64,000 nt of DNA from contig NZ_JAAXCY010000001.1 in assembly GCF_014230465.1 (NCBI RefSeq), forward strand, positions 558,001 through 622,000, written 5' to 3'. Origin of the DNA: Pseudomonas cremoris. Its GTDB lineage: Bacteria > Pseudomonadota > Gammaproteobacteria > Pseudomonadales > Pseudomonadaceae. The notes under the pieces were generated by a model. That model was not told where the DNA came from, made no database searches, and saw only the letters and a list, made by a program, of their open reading frames with translations. This document shows, one piece after another, positions 54,740 through 63,795 of this stretch. The position numbers and the translations under genes were made by a program. How positions within the stretch are numbered: position 1 is the first letter of the stretch; each line of letters opens with the position of its first letter.

Positions 54740-56164
54740 CTACAGATGAAACCTGCCCCCACCCTGCCCCAGCGCAGTGGCCAACGCATCAAACCCCGCC
54801 CGCAACAGCAGATCATCTCCCGACGTATTGCAGATGCTCGCCCGAATAAACTGCGGCACCGCCGTCTGCCCCACGGCAAACGCCTCGGCAGTGGCGATCA
54901 GGTAATTATTCTGCTTGAGCTCTGCCTCGATTTCCGACGCGCGCCACGGCTCCGGCACTTCAATCCAGAAGTGCGGGCTATTGAGATGGGTGCGGTATTC
55001 CAGGCCGGCCAACAGGTCGCGCACCAGCGCCTTGCGCCGGCTGATCTCGTTGATCTGCTGGCGCAGCAGGTACTCCGCCGTGCCGTTTTCGATCCATTGT
55101 GTGGCCAGTTCCAAGGTCACCGGGGTGGCCATCCAGCACGTCGAGCGCAGCGCCGCCGAGATGCGGCTGACCAACGCCGGCGGCGCATGTACGTAACCCA
55201 CGCGCAACCCGGCTGACACCGCCTTGCTCAAGCTGCTGATCAAAATCGTACGCTCGGGCGCGAAATAACTGAGCGGTGGCGGTCGGTCTTCTACCAATAC
55301 ACCGTGGGCCTCGTCTTCAAGGATCAGCAGGTTGTGTTCACGGCACACCCTGACCAGCGCTTCTCGACGCGCGACGGATAACACCGCCGTGGTCGGGTTT
55401 TGAATAGTCGGCGTGCAGTACAACGCTGAAACCCGATGACTGCGACAGACTTCATCCAGCGCACTCGGCAGCACGCCTTCTTCATCCATCGCCAGGCCGA
55501 TCAGTCGTATGCCGAGCATGCGCGCGGCAGTGATGAGGCCGGGATAGGTCAATTGCTCGGTGACCACCGTGTCGCCGGCCCGCAGCAACGCCATCATCGC
55601 GCAGAGCAAGCCGTGCTGGCCGCCATTGACGCAGATGACCTGTTCGGGAATCGGATGGAAATCGCGCTGCACCAGCCACTGCGCGCCCGCCTCGCGGTAA
55701 CGCGGCAGACCCGCGTCCGGGGTGTAGGCGCTGATGTCCTGGAGGAACTTGGCATTGGTCGACAGGGTTTGGAAACTCTGGGCGAGGAACGTCGTTTCCT
55801 GCCCGGGGATATGCATGTTGCGGCTCATGTCGAAGTACTGGCGCGGCTCTTCGCTGAAGTTGCGAAAGCCTTCATCGCGCTGGCGCTCCATCCCACGCTT
55901 GCGGACGAACGTGCCGTCGCCCACACGCGCCACTACCAACCCCAGGCGTTCCAACTCGCCGTAGGCCCGGCTGATGGTGCCGATCGTGACGCCAAGATTG
56001 TCGGAAAGCACCCGATGGGGTGGCAGTTTTCTTCCCGGTTCAATCAAGCCTTCGAGGATGCCCCGTTCCATGACATCGGACAGGCGCTTGTACTTCACGC
56101 CCTGCCCGTTGGACAACCCCTCACGCATAATTGACACCATGTCAATATTTGTTTTGACAGCCAT
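54740..56164 (-). CDS. MocR-type GntR regulator with aminotransferase domain
   Basis: 474 residues. N-terminal GntR winged helix (YKRLSDVMERGILEGLIEPG, GVTIGTISRAYGELERLGLV, about 25-90) fused to a class I aminotransferase fold. The PLP lysine is K314 in SSLSKAVSAGLRVG, and the PLP ring aspartate region is ILEDEAHGVL. MocR proteins sense amino acids or PLP adducts. It is divergent from the five-gene sulfur operon starting at 56268, with a 103-base gap containing an imperfect inverted repeat, so it most likely controls that operon. Confidence 0.92.
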   Translation of the reverse strand: MAVKTNIDMVSIMREGLSNGQGVKYKRLSDVMERGILEGLIEPGRKLPPHRVLSDNLGVTIGTISRAYGELERLGLVVARVGDGTFVRKRGMERQRDEGFRNFSEEPRQYFDMSRNMHIPGQETTFLAQSFQTLSTNAKFLQDISAYTPDAGLPRYREAGAQWLVQRDFHPIPEQVICVNGGQHGLLCAMMALLRAGDTVVTEQLTYPGLITAARMLGIRLIGLAMDEEGVLPSALDEVCRSHRVSALYCTPTIQNPTTAVLSVARREALVRVCREHNLLILEDEAHGVLVEDRPPPLSYFAPERTILISSLSKAVSAGLRVGYVHAPPALVSRISAALRSTCWMATPVTLELATQWIENGTAEYLLRQQINEISRRKALVRDLLAGLEYRTHLNSPHFWIEVPEPWRASEIEAELKQNNYLIATAEAFAVGQTAVPQFIRASICNTSGDDLLLRAGFDALATALGQGGGRFHL

Positions 56165-56201
56165 CTTTCGCCCTAATAGTGTGCTTTTACGGGTTCAATC
56201 G

Positions 56202-56248
56202 CCGAATTTTACAACTCATTACAAGCTCAATATAGAGTTCAATTTCGG
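56202..56248. promoter_or_regulatory. Imperfect inverted repeat in the mocR/operon gap
   Basis: CCGAATTTTACAACTC (56202-56217) and GAGTTCAATTTCGG (56235-56248) are near-mirror images: CCGAA, T-rich, CAACTC against GAGTTC, AATTT, CGG. Such long, spaced repeats are usual for MocR dimers. It also lies close to the start of the DMT gene. Confidence 0.45.
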
Positions 56249-56267
56249 CTCAGGGAAGCAATAAACG

Positions 56268-57218
56268 ATGCCAATGTCCGCCGTTCTCGAAAATACCGCC
56301 AAGGCCAAAAACCAAAAACAGTGGTTGGCCGGCCTGGTCACCAGCGTGATGTTCCTGATCGTGTGCCTGAGTTGGGGCACCACTTGGCTGGGCATCAAGA
56401 TTGCCGTGGAGAGCGTTCCGCCGCTCACATCCGCCGGCCTGCGCTTCCTGATCGCCTTCCCACTGTTCCTGTGTTTTGCCATGGTGCGCCGCGAGCCCAT
56501 CCTGTTCCCTCGTGAAAGCCGCTGGTTCTTTGTGTTCGTGACCCTTTCCTACTTCAGCGTTCCCTATTACCTGCTCAATTACGGCGAGATGCATGTCTCA
56601 TCCGGCCTCACTGCCCTGCTGTTCAGCTGCATGCCGGTCTTCATCCTGATTTTCTCCGCGCTGTTCCTGCGCGAACGCATCTACTTTTCCCAGGTGGTCG
56701 GTATCGGTATCGGCTTTGGCAGCCTGTACATGATCATCAAGAGCCAGGGCCTGCACCTGGACCACGCCGAGTTCTTCGGCGTGCTGGCGATCCTCACCGC
56801 CGCGATCATGCATGCCTTGTGCTACGTGATTACCAAGCAAAAAGGCAGCGCCATCAGTGTGATCACCTACAACACCCTGCCCATCGGCATCGCTGGGCTG
56901 ATGCTGTTTGTCGCCGGACTGTGGTTTGAAACACCGACCTTTGAAGCCATCACCCTGCGCTCCTGGGGGGCACTGTTCTATCTGGGGCTGGTGGCTTCGG
57001 TCGGCGGGTTCATCGTGTACTTCATGCTGCTCAAGCGTTTGAGCCCGATCATCCTGTCGTTCGTGTTCATCATCTTTCCGGTGTTCGCGGTGATCATCGG
57101 CGCCTGGTACGAAGGCGTAGCGATTTCCCGCGACCTGATGCTGTATTCGGCCATCCTGCTGGCCGGTTTTGCGATTACCAAGTTGCCGGTTGAAAAACTG
57201 CTGGCCAAGAAAAATTGA
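56268..57218 (+). CDS. EamA/DMT-family exporter, first gene of the sulfur operon
   Basis: 316-residue inner-membrane protein, two EamA repeats, about ten transmembrane helices (e.g. VTSVMFLIVCLSWGTTWLGI, LSYFSVPYYLLNYGEMHVSS). An ATG at 56268 with GGGAAG upstream is used; another ATG two codons later is possible. Members of this family export cysteine and O-acetylserine in E. coli (YdeD) or other amino acids, which fits the biosynthetic genes behind it. The product exported here is an inference. 26 bases separate it from the next gene. Confidence 0.9.
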   Translation: MPMSAVLENTAKAKNQKQWLAGLVTSVMFLIVCLSWGTTWLGIKIAVESVPPLTSAGLRFLIAFPLFLCFAMVRREPILFPRESRWFFVFVTLSYFSVPYYLLNYGEMHVSSGLTALLFSCMPVFILIFSALFLRERIYFSQVVGIGIGFGSLYMIIKSQGLHLDHAEFFGVLAILTAAIMHALCYVITKQKGSAISVITYNTLPIGIAGLMLFVAGLWFETPTFEAITLRSWGALFYLGLVASVGGFIVYFMLLKRLSPIILSFVFIIFPVFAVIIGAWYEGVAISRDLMLYSAILLAGFAITKLPVEKLLAKKN

Positions 57219-57244
57219 CCCTTCAACCACTACGCGAGAGAAAC

Positions 57245-59107
57245 ATGGACGTCCTCCGCCCAAAAGCCCTGGAACAGATCTACGCCCACGCCAGCCGCAG
57301 CTATCCCGAGGAATGCTGCGGCTTCGTCTTCGCCGATGGCAGTGTGTACCTGGGCAGCAATATCCAGAATGAGCTGCACCGCAAGAACCCCGAGATGTAC
57401 CCACGCAACGCGGCCAACGGCTACACGTTTGCGGTGGCCGACACCCTGCTGATGAACAAGGCGTTTCGCAGCGACAACCCGGTGGTGGTGATCTACCACT
57501 CCCACCCGGATGTCGGTGCCTATTTCAGCGACGAAGACCAGGACAAGGCGCTGTTCATGGGCGAACCGATCTACCCCGTCAGTTACCTGGTGGTAGACGT
57601 TCGCCAGGGCCAGGCCCTGGGTTCCAAGCTGTTTGCCTGGGACGGCAAGCATTTCGCCCTCAACCCTTTCAACGACCTGCACACGGAGTTGTCCATGAAC
57701 GCTGTCTCTTTCCCCGACATTCTGGTTCGCGTGGCCAAGCTGCCGGAATCGACCCTTGAGGGTACCGGATCGACATTGCGCGAAGTCATTGAAAACCTCT
57801 GCAGCAGCCACCCACAGTTGCGTCCGCACCTGTTCCACGAGAAAAACAACCAGCTCAAGGAGCACTTCCTGTTTACCGCCGAGGAAGCGCTGATCGACGC
57901 GGACGACCTGCTGCCCGAAAAAGCCAAGATCGAAGTGCTGCTCGCCACCTCGGGCGGCATCGACGTCGACACCTTGAGCAACGAAGAAGTACAGCGCTAC
58001 GTGCGCCACATCACCCTGCCCGGTGTCGGTCGTGAAGGCCAATTGAACCTCAAGAAAGCCAAGGTGCTGATCATCGGCACTGGCGGCCTGGGTTCGCCCA
58101 TCAGCCTGTACCTGGCGGCGGCCGGCATCGGCACCCTGGGCCTGGTGGACTTTGACGTGGTGGAAAGCAGCAACCTGCAGCGCCAGATCGTGCACGGCAA
58201 CAGCACCCTTGGCATGCCCAAGGTCGAGTCCGCCAAGCAACGCCTGCAAGACCTAAACCGACATATCCAGATCAACGCGCACGACACCGCCTTGAACGCC
58301 GACAACGCCCTGGACCTCGTGGGCGCCTACGACCTGGTGATCGACGGCACCGACAACTTCGACACCCGCTACCTGGTCAACGACGCCTGCGTGCAGCTGG
58401 GCAAACCCTTGGTGTACGGCGCCATCTACCGTTTCGACGGGCAGATCAGCGTCCTCAACTATAAAGGCGGGCCGTGCTACCGCTGCCTGTTCCCCAAGGC
58501 CCCGCCCGCTGAGCTGGCGCCCAATTGCAGCGCCGGCGGCGTGATCGGCGTGCTGCCCGGCGTGGTCGGAATGATCCAGGCCACCGAGGCAATCAAGCTG
58601 CTGATCGGCATTGGTGAGCCGCTGTCCGGCCGCCTGATGCGCTTCGATGCGCTGGCGATGAAATTCAGCGAGATCCGCTTCAAGCGCCGTACCGACTGCC
58701 CGTGCTGCTCGGAACTGCGCCACAGCGAAACCCAGGCGCCGGCGGTGTGCGCCGATGCCGTGCCGAGCCAGCCGTCACTGGCCGAAGAGCGCTACATCAA
58801 GCCCCGCGTGCTCAAGCAATTGCTCGAACACCCACGCAGCGCCGACGTGCTGCTGGACGTACGCGATGCCAGCGAACTGGAAGTGTGCAAGTTGCCGGGC
58901 GTGGTGCACATCCCGCTGGCCGAACTGGATGGGCAACTCGACAGCCTCAGCCGGGACAACACCCATTACCTGATCTGCTATGCCGGTACCCGCGCCGAGC
59001 AGGCCGCCAGCACGCTGCTGGCGGCAGGTTTTGCCAACACCAAAGTCCTGCAAGGTGGCATGAAACATTGGGTTCGCGACGTCGAACCCGACATGCCTTT
59101 GTACTGA
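57245..59107 (+). CDS. JAMM protease-ubiquitin-like carrier-E1-rhodanese fusion protein
   Basis: 620 residues holding a complete sulfur-carrier system. Residues 1-145 are a JAMM/Mec+ metalloprotease (E23, H85, H87, S95, D98 in YHSHPDVGAYFSDED). Residues 151-238 are a MoaD/ThiS-like beta-grasp domain (LREVIENLCSSHPQLRPHLF ... KIEVLLATSGG) ending in G237-G238. Residues 245-490 are a ThiF/MoeB-type adenylating domain (GTGGLGSP at 278-285; zinc cysteines C411, C414, C485, C488; candidate catalytic C428). Residues 515-620 are a rhodanese with C578 in CYAGTR. Known family logic: E1 adenylates the carrier C terminus, rhodanese adds sulfur, a synthase uses the thiocarboxylate, and the JAMM protease releases the amino acid. 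A strong internal start (GGAG, then ATG at 57695) sits at the JAMM/carrier boundary. Confidence 0.93.
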   Translation: MDVLRPKALEQIYAHASRSYPEECCGFVFADGSVYLGSNIQNELHRKNPEMYPRNAANGYTFAVADTLLMNKAFRSDNPVVVIYHSHPDVGAYFSDEDQDKALFMGEPIYPVSYLVVDVRQGQALGSKLFAWDGKHFALNPFNDLHTELSMNAVSFPDILVRVAKLPESTLEGTGSTLREVIENLCSSHPQLRPHLFHEKNNQLKEHFLFTAEEALIDADDLLPEKAKIEVLLATSGGIDVDTLSNEEVQRYVRHITLPGVGREGQLNLKKAKVLIIGTGGLGSPISLYLAAAGIGTLGLVDFDVVESSNLQRQIVHGNSTLGMPKVESAKQRLQDLNRHIQINAHDTALNADNALDLVGAYDLVIDGTDNFDTRYLVNDACVQLGKPLVYGAIYRFDGQISVLNYKGGPCYRCLFPKAPPAELAPNCSAGGVIGVLPGVVGMIQATEAIKLLIGIGEPLSGRLMRFDALAMKFSEIRFKRRTDCPCCSELRHSETQAPAVCADAVPSQPSLAEERYIKPRVLKQLLEHPRSADVLLDVRDASELEVCKLPGVVHIPLAELDGQLDSLSRDNTHYLICYAGTRAEQAASTLLAAGFANTKVLQGGMKHWVRDVEPDMPLY

Positions 59108-59116
59108 CCTCCGGCC

Positions 59117-60046
59117 ATGGGCTCCTACCTGATGCTGCATAACTCTATTCTCGACGCCATCGGCCACACGCCGATCGTGCGCCTGGCGCAGTTTTCCGAA
59201 GACCTCGGCATCGAGGTCTACGCCAAGCTGGAATCCCTCAACCCCGGCGGCAGCCACAAGGCGCGCATCGCCTTGGGCATGATCCTCGACGCCGAGCGCC
59301 GGGGCGTGCTGATCCGCGACTCCGGGCAAACCATCATCGAACCCAGCGGCGGCAACACCGGCATCGGCCTGGTGATGGCCGGCAATGTGCTGGGCTACAA
59401 GGTGGTGCTGGTGATCCCCGACAACTACAGCCCTGAAAAACAAAAATTGCTGCGCCTGTACGGGGCCAAGGTGGTGCTGTCGGACAGCCGCCTGGGCAAC
59501 AACTCCCATGGCGAAAAGTGCATGGAACTGCAGCTGGAAAACCCCAGCTTCGTGATGCTCAACCAGCAGCGCAATGGCGCCAACCCGCAGACCCACCGCG
59601 ACACCACCGCACGGGAAATCATCCGCGCCTTTGGCGAGCGTCGCGTGGACTATTTCGTCAGCGGCATTGGCACCGGCGGGCATATCACCGGCATCGGTGA
59701 AACCTTGAAAGCGACCTGGCCAGCCGTGCGCGTCATGGGTGTGGAACCGGAGGAATGCGACCTGCTGAAAAACCAGCACGCACCGCACCATATCCAGGGC
59801 CTGTCGATCGGCCTGATTCCGAGCATCCTCAACCTGGACGTGATCGACGGCATGCTCAAGGTCTCGCGCCAGGAGTGCATCGACATGATGAAACGCATCA
59901 TGCGCACCGACGCCATCAGCCTGGGCCTGTCCTCTGCCGCCAACATGGTGGCCATCGCCAAGCTCGCCCCCGAATTGCCGCCCGAAACGGTGGTGTTGAC
60001 CATGGTCTACGACAATGCCGACAGCTACCTGCCCAGTTTCGAATAA
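59117..60046 (+). CDS. Cysteine synthase-like PLP enzyme (CysM/CysK family)
   Basis: 309 residues from the ATG at 59117, 9 bases after the fusion gene. A start at 59132 (MLHNSILDAIG) would remove five residues and neither has a strong ribosome binding site. PLP lysine K48 in NPGGSHKARIA, substrate loop EPSGGNTGIGL, phosphate-binding SGIGTGGHITGIGETLK. The NPGGS motif is closer to CysM than to CysK. By analogy with mycobacterial CysM it would transfer the carrier-bound sulfur to an activated serine. A different sulfur- or nitrogen-containing amino acid cannot be excluded. Confidence 0.9.
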   Translation: MGSYLMLHNSILDAIGHTPIVRLAQFSEDLGIEVYAKLESLNPGGSHKARIALGMILDAERRGVLIRDSGQTIIEPSGGNTGIGLVMAGNVLGYKVVLVIPDNYSPEKQKLLRLYGAKVVLSDSRLGNNSHGEKCMELQLENPSFVMLNQQRNGANPQTHRDTTAREIIRAFGERRVDYFVSGIGTGGHITGIGETLKATWPAVRVMGVEPEECDLLKNQHAPHHIQGLSIGLIPSILNLDVIDGMLKVSRQECIDMMKRIMRTDAISLGLSSAANMVAIAKLAPELPPETVVLTMVYDNADSYLPSFE

Positions 60047-60083
60047 GCGGTATTCCAACAAACCAGAATGCGGGGGTGCCTCC

Positions 60084-61076
60084 ATGAGCGGTTTTATCGA
60101 CATGCAACAGCTGCACGATGAGTTGCTCACCCACCTCATCACCACCCTCACGCCGGCGCAGATGAAGCAGTTGGAACCGCACCTCGCGCCGCTGATCCAG
60201 AACGCCGCGCAGGCGGTGGCCGAAGACCTGATCGCCTACGCTTACCGCGACCCGGCATCCCGTGGGCGTGGGGAGCTGATCCTGGAGTCCTATGCCTCGT
60301 TCAAGGCGGTGCTGTATTACCGCTTGGCGCACTTGGTGTGGAATTTCCCCGACCAGACCAACGGGGTGTTTTCGCGCATGGCGCTCAAGCTGAGCAACCA
60401 GGGCAAGATCCTCTCCGGCGCCGAGATCCACCCGGCAGCCCGCATTGGTCGGCGCTTTGTGCTCGACCACGGCTACGGCACGGTGATCGGTGAAACCTGC
60501 GAGATCGGCAACGACTGCTACATCCTCTGCGGCGTGACGCTCGGCGCCCGAGGCATCGCCAACAACCCCGACGGCAAGCGCCACCCGCGCCTGGGCAACA
60601 ACGTCGAGGTCGGCTCCGGCGCACGCGTGCTGGGTTACGTGCTGATCGGCGACAACGTGTTTATCAGCCCTTCCTGCGTGATCACTCAAGACGTGCCGGC
60701 CGGCACCAAGGTCAAGGTGGTGAACCAGGTCCAGCTGCAGAAAAACGATGAATCAGAGCACAGCAACTACCTCGGCGCTTTCGCCCTCGACGAGCGTTTG
60801 CACGTGGTCGGCGAGATCAACGCCAGTCACAAGGTCACGGTGCTGGACGCCGATTTCCACCCCTTGCAAGGGCTGATGCTGGAGCCCACGGTGAAGGAGC
60901 GCCACCACCTGCAATTTCGTCTGCATCGCGTGGAGTCAGGCAACCACCTGCCGCGCCTGCCGCTGAACCTGAAAGTGTGCGGCCCGGAATTTGAAATCAC
61001 CCTGCTATCCCCCCCTGGCTTGAGTGCAATGGTGCGTTCCCTGATGCAAGCCAGCCCATTGACTGTCGGAGGTTGA
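60084..61076 (+). CDS. Serine acetyltransferase with extra C-terminal domain
   Basis: 330 residues from the ATG at 60084 (GGGGGTG upstream). Residues about 10-105 are the helical N-terminal domain and 110-205 the left-handed beta-helix of hexapeptide repeats, with the catalytic D128-H129 in LDHGYGTVIGE. This is the EpsC/CysE-type enzyme that makes O-acetylserine, the substrate of the upstream synthase. After the hexapeptide part there is an extension of about 105 residues (225-330) that I do not recognise, containing ADFHPLQGLMLEPTVKERHH. It replaces the short CysE tail that normally binds cysteine synthase. Confidence 0.88.
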   Translation: MSGFIDMQQLHDELLTHLITTLTPAQMKQLEPHLAPLIQNAAQAVAEDLIAYAYRDPASRGRGELILESYASFKAVLYYRLAHLVWNFPDQTNGVFSRMALKLSNQGKILSGAEIHPAARIGRRFVLDHGYGTVIGETCEIGNDCYILCGVTLGARGIANNPDGKRHPRLGNNVEVGSGARVLGYVLIGDNVFISPSCVITQDVPAGTKVKVVNQVQLQKNDESEHSNYLGAFALDERLHVVGEINASHKVTVLDADFHPLQGLMLEPTVKERHHLQFRLHRVESGNHLPRLPLNLKVCGPEFEITLLSPPGLSAMVRSLMQASPLTVGG

Positions 61077-61078
61077 AC

Positions 61079-61807
61079 ATGTCTGTGCACACCATGGAAA
61101 CCCTGGCGCTGTTCGATAGCGCGCCCTACCAGAACGCCTTCAGCGCCCGGGTGATCGCCGTCAGCGAACACGGCGTCGCGCTGGAACACACGTTGTTCTA
61201 TCCCACTGGCGGCGGGCAGCCGGGCGACACCGGCCACCTCACGCTGGCCGACGGCACGCGGGTTGAAGTGACCGGCACGGTACGCGACCCGGTACTGCGC
61301 TCGATCATCTGGCACCAGGTGGAACAGTGGCCGGCGCAGTTGGCTGCCGGCGCGCAGGTGGATGCGGGTATCGATTGGGAGCGGCGCTACCAACACATGA
61401 AGATGCACACCTGCTTGCACCTGCTGTGTTCGCTCATCGACGCTCCGGTCACCGGTTGCAGCATCAGTGCCGACAAAGGCCGCCTGGATTTCGACTTGCC
61501 GGAAATGACCCTCGACAAAGACAGCCTCACCCGTGACCTGAACGCGCTGATCGAGCAAGCCCATACGGTCAAGACCCTGTCGATGCCCGCCTCCGAGTAT
61601 TCCACCCTGCTGCAGATAACCCGCACCCAGGCGGTCGCGCCTCCGGTGGTCCAAGGCTCGGTCCGGGTCATCGAGATCAGCGGTATCGATATACAACCAT
61701 GCGGCGGTACCCACGTCACCAACACCGAGGAAATCGGCCGGGTGTTCTGCGAGAAAATCGAGAAGAAGAGCAAGCACAACCGCCGGGTAATCCTGCGGTT
61801 TGAATAA
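61079..61807 (+). CDS. AlaX-type alanyl-tRNA editing protein
   Basis: 242 residues from the ATG at 61079, 2 bases after the previous stop and with GGAGG 6 bases upstream. It matches the free-standing editing domain of alanyl-tRNA synthetase: TLFYPTGGGQPGDTGHL near the N terminus and the zinc ligands H110, H114 (HTCLH), C208 and H212 (CGGTH). These proteins hydrolyse wrongly charged tRNA, classically Ser- or Gly-tRNA(Ala). Its place as last gene of a sulfur amino-acid operon suggests it protects translation from the operon's product or from excess serine/cysteine, but that is inference. Confidence 0.9.
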   Translation: MSVHTMETLALFDSAPYQNAFSARVIAVSEHGVALEHTLFYPTGGGQPGDTGHLTLADGTRVEVTGTVRDPVLRSIIWHQVEQWPAQLAAGAQVDAGIDWERRYQHMKMHTCLHLLCSLIDAPVTGCSISADKGRLDFDLPEMTLDKDSLTRDLNALIEQAHTVKTLSMPASEYSTLLQITRTQAVAPPVVQGSVRVIEISGIDIQPCGGTHVTNTEEIGRVFCEKIEKKSKHNRRVILRFE

Positions 61808-62049: not shown

Positions 62050-63795
62050 ATGAACAAAGTGTTCCGCCACTACATCCCGGCGTCCACATTGCGCTTGCTG
62101 CCCAACCGCTGGGATTTGGTTGCCCTGCCGCTGGTAATCGGCTTTCTACTGTTTTTCTCGATCACTGCCCGTGAAACCTGGGCTCCCATCGACACCCTGC
62201 AGAGCGAAATCATTTCCCTCGACCCGGCCAACCTGCCGGAGTACGCGATGCGCACCACCCTACGCATGCTCGCAGCGATGTTTGCGGCGCTGGTTTTCAC
62301 CCTGTTGTATGGCACCTTGGCGGCCAAAAGCCGGCGCGCCGAGAAGCTGCTGGTGCCGGTGCTCGACATCCTGCAATCGGTGCCGGTGCTCGGTTACATC
62401 TCCTTTACGGTGACGTTTTTCCTGCTGCTGTTCCCCGGGCGCGTGCTCGGTGCCGAGTTCGCGGCGATCTTTGCGATCTTCACCAGCCAAGCCTGGAACA
62501 TGACGTTCAGCTTCTACCAGTCGCTGCGCATGCTGCCTCACGACCTGGTGGAAGTGTCCACCAACCTGCGGCTGTCGGGCTGGCAGAAGTTCTGGAAACT
62601 CGACGTGCCCTTCGCCATGCCCGGGCTGGTGTGGAACATGATGATGAGCATGTCCGGCGGCTGGTTCTTCGTGGTCGCATCCGAAGCCATTACCGTCGGC
62701 GACAAAACCATCACCCTGCCCGGCGTGGGTTCGTACCTGGCCCTGGCCATTGCCCAGAAAGACTTGCACGCCGTGGGTTACGTGATTCTGGCGATGATCG
62801 CGGTGATCCTGATCTACGACCAGTTCCTGTTCCGCCCGCTGGTGGCCTGGGCCGACAAGTTCCGCATGGAAACCACCGCCTCCCAAGGCGCTGCGCCACA
62901 GTCCTGGGTGCTGAACCTGATCCAGCGCACGCGCATGGTCCAACGCATCTTGCGCCCGATCACCCGCACCATCAGCCGGATTGGCAACAAGCGCTTCAGC
63001 CTGGCAGGCGGTGCGTTCAAGGCATTGCCGGCAGAAACGCCGGCAGCCTCGAAGGTGATCGACTGGGCATGGGGCAGCCTGATCGCCTTGATGGCCGCCT
63101 ATGCGCTGTACCACATCGTGCTGTACGTCGGCACGGAAGTAGGCCTGGCCGAAGTTGGCCACGTGCTGGTGTTGGGCCTGATCACCTTGTTGCGGGTCGC
63201 GGGGCTGATCCTGATCGCGTCGCTGATCTGGGTGCCCCTAGGCGTGATGATCGGCCTGCGTCCCAAACTGGCGGAAAAGATTCAGCCGTTGGCGCAGTTT
63301 CTCGCGGCGTTCCCGGCCAACCTGCTGTTCCCGGTGTTCGTCATCGTGATCCTGCACTACAAACTCAACCCGGATATCTGGCTGAGCCCACTGATCGTGC
63401 TGGGCACCCAGTGGTACATCCTGTTCAACGTCGTCGCCGGTGCCAGCGCCTTCCCCAACGACTTCAAGGAAGCCGCCGCCAACTTCCGCATTCGCGGCTG
63501 GCTGTGGTGGCGCAAAGTGATGCTGCCGGGCATTTTCCCGTACTACGTCACCGGCGCGATCACCGCCTCAGGCGGTGCGTGGAACGCCAGCATCGTTTCC
63601 GAGTACGTGTCGTGGGGCCAGGACACCGTGGTCGCCCATGGCCTGGGCGCCTACATCGCACAAACCACCGCCGCCGGCGACTTCCCCAAAATCGCCCTGG
63701 GCGTGGTGGTGATGTCGATCTTTGTGGTGGCCTTCAACCGTGCGGTCTGGCGGCCGATGTACGCCATGGCTGAAAACAAACTGCGTCTGAATTGA
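62050..63795 (+). CDS. ABC transporter permease, duplicated (anion/nitrate/sulfonate type)
   Basis: 581-residue inner-membrane protein made of two tandem BPD-type permease domains (about 60-270 and 350-575), each with the EAA loop (NLRLSGWQKFWKLDVPFAMP and NFRIRGWLWWRKVMLPGIFP). This one-chain double permease belongs to the anion-transport group related to nitrate/sulfonate/bicarbonate importers. The ATPase gene follows directly. No periplasmic binding protein is in the window. The 240 bases upstream hold no gene and must contain its promoter. Confidence 0.9.
   Translation: MNKVFRHYIPASTLRLLPNRWDLVALPLVIGFLLFFSITARETWAPIDTLQSEIISLDPANLPEYAMRTTLRMLAAMFAALVFTLLYGTLAAKSRRAEKLLVPVLDILQSVPVLGYISFTVTFFLLLFPGRVLGAEFAAIFAIFTSQAWNMTFSFYQSLRMLPHDLVEVSTNLRLSGWQKFWKLDVPFAMPGLVWNMMMSMSGGWFFVVASEAITVGDKTITLPGVGSYLALAIAQKDLHAVGYVILAMIAVILIYDQFLFRPLVAWADKFRMETTASQGAAPQSWVLNLIQRTRMVQRILRPITRTISRIGNKRFSLAGGAFKALPAETPAASKVIDWAWGSLIALMAAYALYHIVLYVGTEVGLAEVGHVLVLGLITLLRVAGLILIASLIWVPLGVMIGLRPKLAEKIQPLAQFLAAFPANLLFPVFVIVILHYKLNPDIWLSPLIVLGTQWYILFNVVAGASAFPNDFKEAAANFRIRGWLWWRKVMLPGIFPYYVTGAITASGGAWNASIVSEYVSWGQDTVVAHGLGAYIAQTTAAGDFPKIALGVVVMSIFVVAFNRAVWRPMYAMAENKLRLN

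Follow-up and report, generated by a model that had tools for sequence, protein, structure and literature searches.

A stretch of 64,000 nt from Pseudomonas cremoris (contig NZ_JAAXCY010000001.1, positions 558,001-622,000), hereafter the window, to which all coordinates refer, carries at 54740-61807 a divergent MocR regulator gene and five closely spaced genes. The second of the five encodes, in a single chain of 620 residues, a JAMM protease domain, a CysO-like ubiquitin-fold carrier, an E1 adenylyltransferase and a rhodanese. The new element is an invariant carrier tail that lies inside a chain also holding the predicted loader of the carrier and a protease of a suitable type, together with retained signals of a second translation start. 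We propose, with a probability of about 0.6, that the operon specifies a conditional cysteine-forming pathway that runs on this ubiquitin-like sulfur carrier and is built as one chain. Published work is cited below from passages of the papers concerned.

The four-domain protein and its internal Gly-Gly

The features of the fusion gene are the following:

57245..59107, + strand: fusion JAMM - CysO-like carrier - E1 (MoeB/ThiF) - rhodanese, 620 aa (Pfam, profile match, fold)
57263..57601, + strand: JAMM domain (Pfam Prok-JAB, residues 7-119); E23, H85-S-H87, S95, D98
57685..57688, + strand: ribosome-binding-like GGAG, 6 nt before the internal ATG at 57695 (conservation across loci)
57695..57958, + strand: CysO-like ubiquitin-fold carrier (residues 151-238), starting at the internal ATG (profile, model, fold)
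57944..57958, + strand: internal ATSGG (residues 234-238), predicted cut between G238 and I239 (motif conservation)
57998..58705, + strand: E1 adenylyltransferase domain (Pfam ThiF, residues 252-487) with GTGGLGS and the CXXC pairs CYRC at 411 and CPCC at 485
58808..59077, + strand: rhodanese domain (Pfam, residues 522-611), active loop CYAGTR at 578

The JAMM signature E...H-S/T-H-x7-S-x2-D is complete in the window (E23, H85, S86, H87, S95, D98) and in all 95 distinct JAMM sequences examined, and the E1 GTGGLGS, both CXXC pairs and the rhodanese CYAGTR are intact. The combination of an E1 with a C-terminal rhodanese that keeps its catalytic cysteine is that of MoeZR. However, the presence of both CXXC motifs makes the E1 MoeBR-like, as the second motif is mostly missing from MoeZR and the first is replaced by NYRD (PMC3227635). 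Database names call the protein MoeB, and the two CXXC motifs agree with MoeB/MoeBR. A molybdopterin MoeB paralog misplaced beside cysteine genes is nevertheless scarcely credible: the carrier is CysO-like, the operon contains no moa gene, and a separate E1-only match at about 47-54%, likely to be MoeB, is listed for genomes of the same genus whether or not they have the fusion. The database name is probably misleading for this protein group.

The carrier of the window scores below the Pfam cut-off (ThiS 15.3 bits vs 22.5); PF02597 (ThiS) is found in the homologs P0073, P0095, P0111, P0113 and P0115. A profile built from 21 carrier domains matches CysO of Amycolatopsis (4n6e_B, E 1.4e-10) and of M. 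tuberculosis (3dwg_C, E 2e-7), with alignments that reach the last residues, Gly-Gly, of both chains. Modelled alone, the carrier has a mean pLDDT of 89.7, and the best Foldseek matches of this model are SAMP1, the BexX/CysO complex and CysO itself (3dwg_C, TM 0.82). Profile, model and structural search thus all give a beta-grasp ubiquitin fold near CysO. The domain departs from CysO in that its Gly-Gly is not C-terminal in the gene product, as 382 residues come after it, and would become a chain end only after the predicted cut.

The internal motif is strongly conserved. A(T/A)SGG followed by a further residue occurs in 121 of 121 sequences (the query and the best 120 of 7,999 scored hits, including many close relatives and a few fragments). 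Among 40 sequences under 85% identity, A234, S236, G237 and G238 are invariant (entropy 0 for both glycines), whereas the residues after them vary (2.06, 2.90 and 2.57 bits at positions 239, 241 and 243), D240 being kept in 35 of the 40. ATSGG ranks 8th in conservation among 460 five-residue windows, and the seven that rank higher are all in the E1. A search with the carrier portion of an Endozoicomonas-like protein retrieved a second family, spread over Endozoicomonas, Photobacterium, Shewanella and others, all 72 hits of which contain P(A/S)IAGG with a further residue after it. The substrate of an E1 is a free C-terminal carboxylate, so that on chemical grounds, rather than by any result obtained here, the fused carriers would need to be cut before loading.

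Genome G018, a single contig, has no Prok-JAB match besides the fusion, nor any further full-length match to the carrier profile; other genomes, G001 and G005 among them, hold additional Prok-JAB matches.

A retained internal start

The JAMM, carrier and E1 are encoded in one frame in 102 of 124 loci, in which some genomes are present under two identifiers; the JAMM is separate in 19 (in L060 through a frame break) and three loci are irregular. Where the JAMM is separate, GGAG directly precedes the ATG of the carrier-E1 gene. Where it is in frame with the carrier, GGAG and ATG are also kept, 6 nt apart, in 105 of 105 loci while the surrounding residues change; this count concerns the JAMM-carrier joint only, takes in L073, L060 and L059, and amounts to 11 distinct 24-base versions. 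The codon before GAG is ACG, GCG or ATG and never ACC or GCC, whereas the fusion gene as a whole uses 18 ACC vs 3 ACG and 37 GCC vs 15 GCG. The loci are related, and these data support, without proving, a second translation start and hence two products from the fused gene.

Carriers outside the fusion and the association with JAMM

In three other genera from two families of the same class (genomes G325, G209 and G441; loci L165, L094 and L095), the carrier is a short gene of its own that lies beside an E1 gene and ends exactly at Gly-Gly. The tails read TALSGG in G325, where the ATG of the E1 gene starts on the next base, PAVAGG in G209 and TAIAGG in G441, and all three carriers exceed the Pfam ThiS cut-off with matches that extend to the last residue. 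A motif search found no ORF with a JAMM motif beside them (flanks of about 1.5 kb at L094 and L095, 5 kb at L165). At L094 and L095, the free-standing carriers and the E1-rhodanese genes adjoin YcaO genes (Pfam), without a JAMM nearby, and an ORF that is presumably TfuA-like; this neighbourhood suggests a thioamide-forming system.

A JAMM motif, fused or nearby, accompanies the carrier-E1 fusion in 127 of 127 loci, which were scored by motif search and are mostly close relatives. Most of the fused carriers belong to Pseudomonas, the others to Vreelandella, to three genomes of genus g34 (G092, G1166, G1167) and to G122, in which a JAMM gene overlaps the start of a fusion gene that joins carrier, rhodanese and E1 in a different order. 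At locus L101 (859-2313), the order is carrier - rhodanese - E1, with an internal AVAGG and an overlapping upstream JAMM gene. The association is one-sided, since JAMM proteins also accompany free-standing carriers in mycobacteria and in siderophore clusters (PMC1779556, PMC6006322).

Several loci were set aside. L098 and L103, which had appeared among 129 loci retrieved with a looser pattern as fusions lacking a JAMM, turned out to be rhodanese-E1 proteins without a carrier. In G579 (L153), what looked like a natural split near Gly-Gly is a damaged copy, its motif being ATSGE followed by a stop. Three irregular loci were not counted as evidence of splitting: in L073 carrier and E1 occupy two frames, L060 has a frame break and L059 a shortened E1 match. 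The irregular frames of these three loci and of L153 may stem from decay or from sequencing error. Lastly, L088 (G096) holds a Prok-JAB protein, a carrier-like match, E1-like and CysK-like pieces and the start of a SAT-like gene, and was rejected as evidence for either arrangement as its frames are broken and its carrier piece has no Pfam ThiS match.

The unfused genes bear on whether the carrier is freed at all. The carrier could instead be a fixed, regulatory or vestigial module of the E1, the real substrate being another carrier such as MoaD or ThiS. Carrier and E1 do share one chain among the listed homologs, and some ThiF proteins are known to carry a fused Ub-like domain distinct from ThiS (Iyer 2006, PMC1779556). 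Nonetheless, a fixed module would need neither an invariant Gly-Gly nor variable residues directly after it, and the carrier genes of three other genera end at that very point, which makes this alternative quite improbable.

Conservation and distribution of the operon

The remaining genes of the locus, and a candidate operator, are as follows:

54740..56164, - strand: MocR-type regulator (GntR HTH and aminotransferase fold), divergent (ORF, Pfam)
56130..56146, no strand: palindrome ATTGACA-CCA-TGTCAAT, candidate operator (89 of 91 loci, one base variable)
56268..57218, + strand: DMT/EamA exporter (Pfam)
59132..60046 (start 59117 possible), + strand: CysK/CysM-like pyridoxal phosphate (PLP) synthase with the lysine motif GSHK and SGGNTG (Pfam PALP)
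60084..61076, + strand: serine acetyltransferase (SAT)-like hexapeptide protein (Pfam Hexapep) with a C-terminal extension of about 100 aa that has no Pfam match
61079..61807 (open from 61073), + strand: AlaX-type tRNA-editing protein with GGGQ, HTCLH and CGGTH intact (Pfam tRNA_SAD)

In the ORF list, the five genes that diverge from mocR (DMT, the JAMM/carrier/E1/rhodanese fusion, CysK-like, SAT-like and AlaX) are separated by gaps of 26, 9, 37 and 2 bases, with starts at 57245, 59117, 60084 and 61079. The Pfam matches are GntR and Aminotran_1_2, EamA, Prok-JAB with ThiF and Rhodanese in one chain, PALP, Hexapep and tRNA_SAD. A first-pass annotation of the locus, made from the letters alone, had given this gene set and these gaps, which the ORF positions bear out. 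It had also placed the four functions of the CysO pathway plus a serine acetyltransferase in one operon, in agreement with the Pfam, profile and fold evidence and with the conserved order, the acetyltransferase being a SAT-like gene. Its description of a carrier fusion holds as regards the domains; it overlooked the internal Gly-Gly, which calls for proteolysis, and the retained internal start.

That annotation had named a lack of conserved gene order in related strains as what would refute it, a check that it withstands. The order MocR (opposite strand) - DMT - JAMM-carrier-E1/rhodanese - CysK-like - SAT-like - AlaX is the same in 75 of the 75 loci recovered with the fusion protein, one of which is from Vreelandella boliviensis (L074); ten further loci, short cuts without AlaX, stand outside this count. 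The fusion proteins of these loci are 87-97% identical to that of the window in 67 cases, 79% in one (L071) and 62-65% in seven. The protein is 100% identical to that of genome G001, and these identities place the window DNA in Pseudomonas, close to the fluorescens group. A distant relative, G1167 (L171), which bears the family and genus label of G092 and belongs to a family other than that of the window, keeps DMT, JAMM, carrier, E1, CysK-like, SAT-like and AlaX genes in order at 50, 55, 36, 55, 59, 41 and 48% identity, respectively; the 11 kb covered there, including 3.2 kb upstream, gave no MocR match. A gene for a PEP-synthase regulatory protein lies upstream in 65 of the 75 loci and an ABC permease gene downstream in 22, some contigs ending too early to show the neighbours. 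As these neighbours change from locus to locus, the operon and its regulator form a conserved unit, and this operon is well conserved and of a known class. In the window, the downstream permease gene (62050-63795) encodes 581 aa with two BPD_transp domains in one chain. A promoter/terminator scan found no terminator after the AlaX gene.

The fusion is far from universal. Of 398 genomes sampled from the genus, 69 have a match with an E of 1e-140 or lower, which in two cases is incomplete. In an even draw over the class, 18 of 369 genomes match at E 1e-90, the whole carrier-E1-rhodanese query being covered only in G001, and in a draw over the phylum, 33 of 398 match at E 1e-105, six of which, all from the same genus, cover the whole query.

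The regulator, the exporter and the amino-acid enzymes

The candidate operator overlaps codons 7-12 of the annotated mocR, whose true start may be a later ATG at 56128, which would make the palindrome an operator region. The DMT protein scores far below exporter models (best YedA, 91 bits vs a cut-off of 270; O-acetylserine/cysteine exporter, 37 vs 472); the export of cysteine through it, as first annotated, is weakened by these scores. The last three enzymes, each below the curated cut-off of its nearest family, are divergent forms. Of the 28 distinct C-terminal extensions of the SAT-like protein in the loci (60750-61076 in the window), 26 have Gly-Gly at the end. The extension was considered as a second carrier, and this was rejected as a general feature: only 39 of 120 listed wider hits, some of which are fragments, end in this way, and related full-length proteins end in GV, ED, SA or PG. 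Elsewhere in the genomes, a second divergent SAT-like gene is present at G001:C1:1196794-1197282 (356 aa) and G018:C1:4999864-5000352 (351 aa), with 170 bits to cysE, below the cut-off.

The same chemistry might serve another product, the CysK-like enzyme making a different beta-substituted alanine that the DMT protein exports and against whose charging onto tRNA AlaX guards. All three amino-acid enzymes score below family cut-offs, exporter and tRNA editor belong to the operon in 75 of 75 loci, and core cysteine genes are found elsewhere. On the last point the first-pass annotation was right, since G001, the nearest genome, has cysE (258 bits) and cysKM (408 bits) matches that both exceed their cut-offs. 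The nearest PDB chain of the CysK-like protein is an O-ureido-L-serine synthase (E 2e-66), followed by cysteine synthases (5e-66); this difference in ranking is negligible. The enzyme is still nearest to the CysK family and the carrier to CysO, and the five genes include no further tailoring enzyme, so that this alternative is unlikely.

The proposed pathway and its precedents

Taking the cysteine-forming pathway as the preferred reading, the process would run as follows. The JAMM active site, of the same or of a second copy, would cut the 620-aa protein after Gly238 and free the Gly-Gly end from the E1; the internal start would yield a carrier-E1-rhodanese protein of 470 aa, from which the same cut would release a free carrier of 88 aa. 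The E1 would then adenylate the freed glycine, and the rhodanese persulfide would convert it to a thiocarboxylate. The SAT-like enzyme would make O-acetylserine, whose aminoacrylate the CysK-like enzyme would join to the carrier sulfur, after which the JAMM would release cysteine and recycle the carrier. The DMT protein would export the product or its excess, a MocR responsive to thiols or amino acids would control the operon and AlaX would limit mischarged tRNA. The domains, motifs, internal Gly-Gly, Gly-Gly-ending carriers of other genera, start signals and operon order are observed by sequence and fold; the cut, every catalytic step, the product, export, regulation and the role of AlaX are what we infer. 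As a narrower proposal, held at somewhat less than even odds, one self-processing chain of protease, carrier, activating enzyme and sulfur donor site may hold an entire ubiquitin-like activation system, in which the protease frees the carrier from its loader and the internal start sets the ratio of protease-bound to free carrier.

This mechanism is supported by comparison and by close precedents. Iyer et al. (2006) proposed that JAB proteins free ThiS/MoaD carriers fused to other proteins (PMC1779556), the JAMM protein DR0402 cleaves a MoaD-MoaE fusion so that a C-terminal Gly remains (PMC8832034), MoaX requires cleavage at Gly82 (PMC4326299) and QbsD uncaps a carrier (PMC6006322). As in the Deinococcus pair DR0402/DR2607, where a JAMM makes the cut, and in mycobacterial MoaX, the carrier is fused through an internal Gly-Gly that would need cutting. 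However, the fusion partner in those systems is MoaE, a user of sulfur, while here it is the E1, the loader, with the JAMM in the same chain. QbsE/QbsD of the thioquinolobactin system and PtmS2/PtmS1 also combine a carrier capped after Gly-Gly with a JAMM-family uncapping protease (uncapping is shown for QbsD and hypothesised for PtmS1), but the cap is 1-2 residues in PtmS3 and PtmS2, instead of 382 residues of enzyme, and the product is a thiocarboxylic acid.

The closest chemistry is that of CysO-MoeZR-CysM-Mec+ of M. tuberculosis, which has a ubiquitin-fold carrier ending in Gly-Gly, an E1 with a rhodanese, a PLP synthase and a JAMM hydrolase, and the same reactions are proposed here. The two systems differ in that the P. 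cremoris carrier lies inside a fused chain together with the JAMM, the E1 has both CXXC motifs as in MoeB/MoeBR, the SAT of the operon points to O-acetylserine rather than O-phosphoserine, and DMT, MocR and AlaX are added. Iyer et al. (2006) list an operon class 4c from P. aeruginosa, R. palustris and others, in which a ThiS/MoaD-like carrier, an E1-rhodanese, a JAB protein and a cysteine synthase are encoded together (PMC1779556). The operon belongs to this class; the passages on it do not describe a carrier-E1 fusion, an internal Gly-Gly, a four-domain chain or a second start.

The Pseudomonas aeruginosa counterpart and the weight of the evidence

PA2100-PA2106 of P. aeruginosa carry the same named parts (PMC9431628, PMC9866376), the comparison being one of names and not of sequences; the MocR corresponds to PA2100/MdrR2 by position and named function. 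PA2100-PA2103, for which PMC9431628 gives no PA14 counterpart in the passages concerned, are in its table of genes changed by N-acetylcysteine, the text calling PA2100 upregulated. PA2101-2104 and PA2106 appear in a table, seen without its headings, of an RpoH study (PMC9866376). PA2100 is among the proteins that a pyridoxal probe enriches (PMC9321722). Two studies devoted to other genes, PMC12800425 and PMC13256707, mention PA2104 (34% to E. coli CysK) and PA2105. Titles, openings of abstracts and passages of the open-licence literature gave no metabolite evidence for cysteine or any other product, no description of the four-domain chain and no assigned function for PA2101-PA2106; the later E1-superfamily survey by Burroughs et al. 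was not covered.

These data could also fit a thiol-response operon, in which cysteine or a related thiol is the signal for MocR, the DMT protein pumps out any surplus and the carrier system serves to trap or move sulfur instead of supplying cysteine. The N-acetylcysteine effect on PA2100-PA2103 (PMC9431628) and a PLP or amino-acid sensor, with which the probe enrichment of PA2100 agrees (PMC9321722), speak for it, as does the auxotrophy of a cysE mutant, which shows that the operon is not used for primary supply. However, SAT-like and CysK-like genes would add cysteine rather than remove it, and the case draws on one transcriptome, in whose passages PA2104-2106 do not appear. This reading seems rather unlikely.

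Several points weigh against a cysteine-forming pathway. PAO1 without cysE is a cysteine auxotroph despite PA2105 (PMC13256707), so that PA2105 does not replace CysE under those conditions, and the N-acetylcysteine response is opposite to that expected of a feedback-controlled cysteine biosynthesis operon. The CysK-like protein is below the NCBIfam cut-offs (cysK 293 vs 350.95, cysKM 299 vs 344.15, and also cysM), and the SAT-like protein is below that of cysE (148 vs 210.65). AlaX is below that of AlaXM (204 vs 300), its HxxxH and CxxxH motifs being present; the clearing of mischarged tRNA that had been attributed to it is thus favoured by the intact HTCLH and CGGTH and weakened by the score. 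The whole-chain AlphaFold model is poor in the JAMM part (44-63 in ten-residue blocks). As to the cut, HvJAMM1 cleaves linear fusions without needing a di-glycine (PMC8832034), and the protease that cuts MoaX is not identified in the passages of PMC4326299, so that the conserved Gly-Gly favours use as a carrier more than it favours the JAMM as the cutter.

Cysteine as the product, which was first annotated as cysteine or a cysteine-like amino acid, is backed by the parts of the CysO pathway, while the cysE auxotroph and the weak growth of a cysK cysM mutant argue against a main biosynthetic role. Growth of the double mutant is minimal and delayed; other low-activity enzymes or reverse transsulfuration have been offered as explanations (PMC12895370), and further cysteine-forming enzymes exist according to the conclusion of PMC12800425. 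The annotation's stress or special role is compatible with the N-acetylcysteine and RpoH tables of P. aeruginosa.

Significance

The fusion offers a clear and cheap test case for the maturation, by a bacterial JAMM, of a carrier joined to the enzyme that activates it. If this occurs, the JAMM cutting known for MoaD-MoaE would be extended to the loading side of ubiquitin-like systems. If the self-processing chain is real, the second family, that of Endozoicomonas, Photobacterium, Shewanella and others, would rely on this cut being made in trans. The pathway would also give a pointer to the function of PA2100-PA2106 in P. aeruginosa, a species in which a cysK cysM mutant still grows a little.

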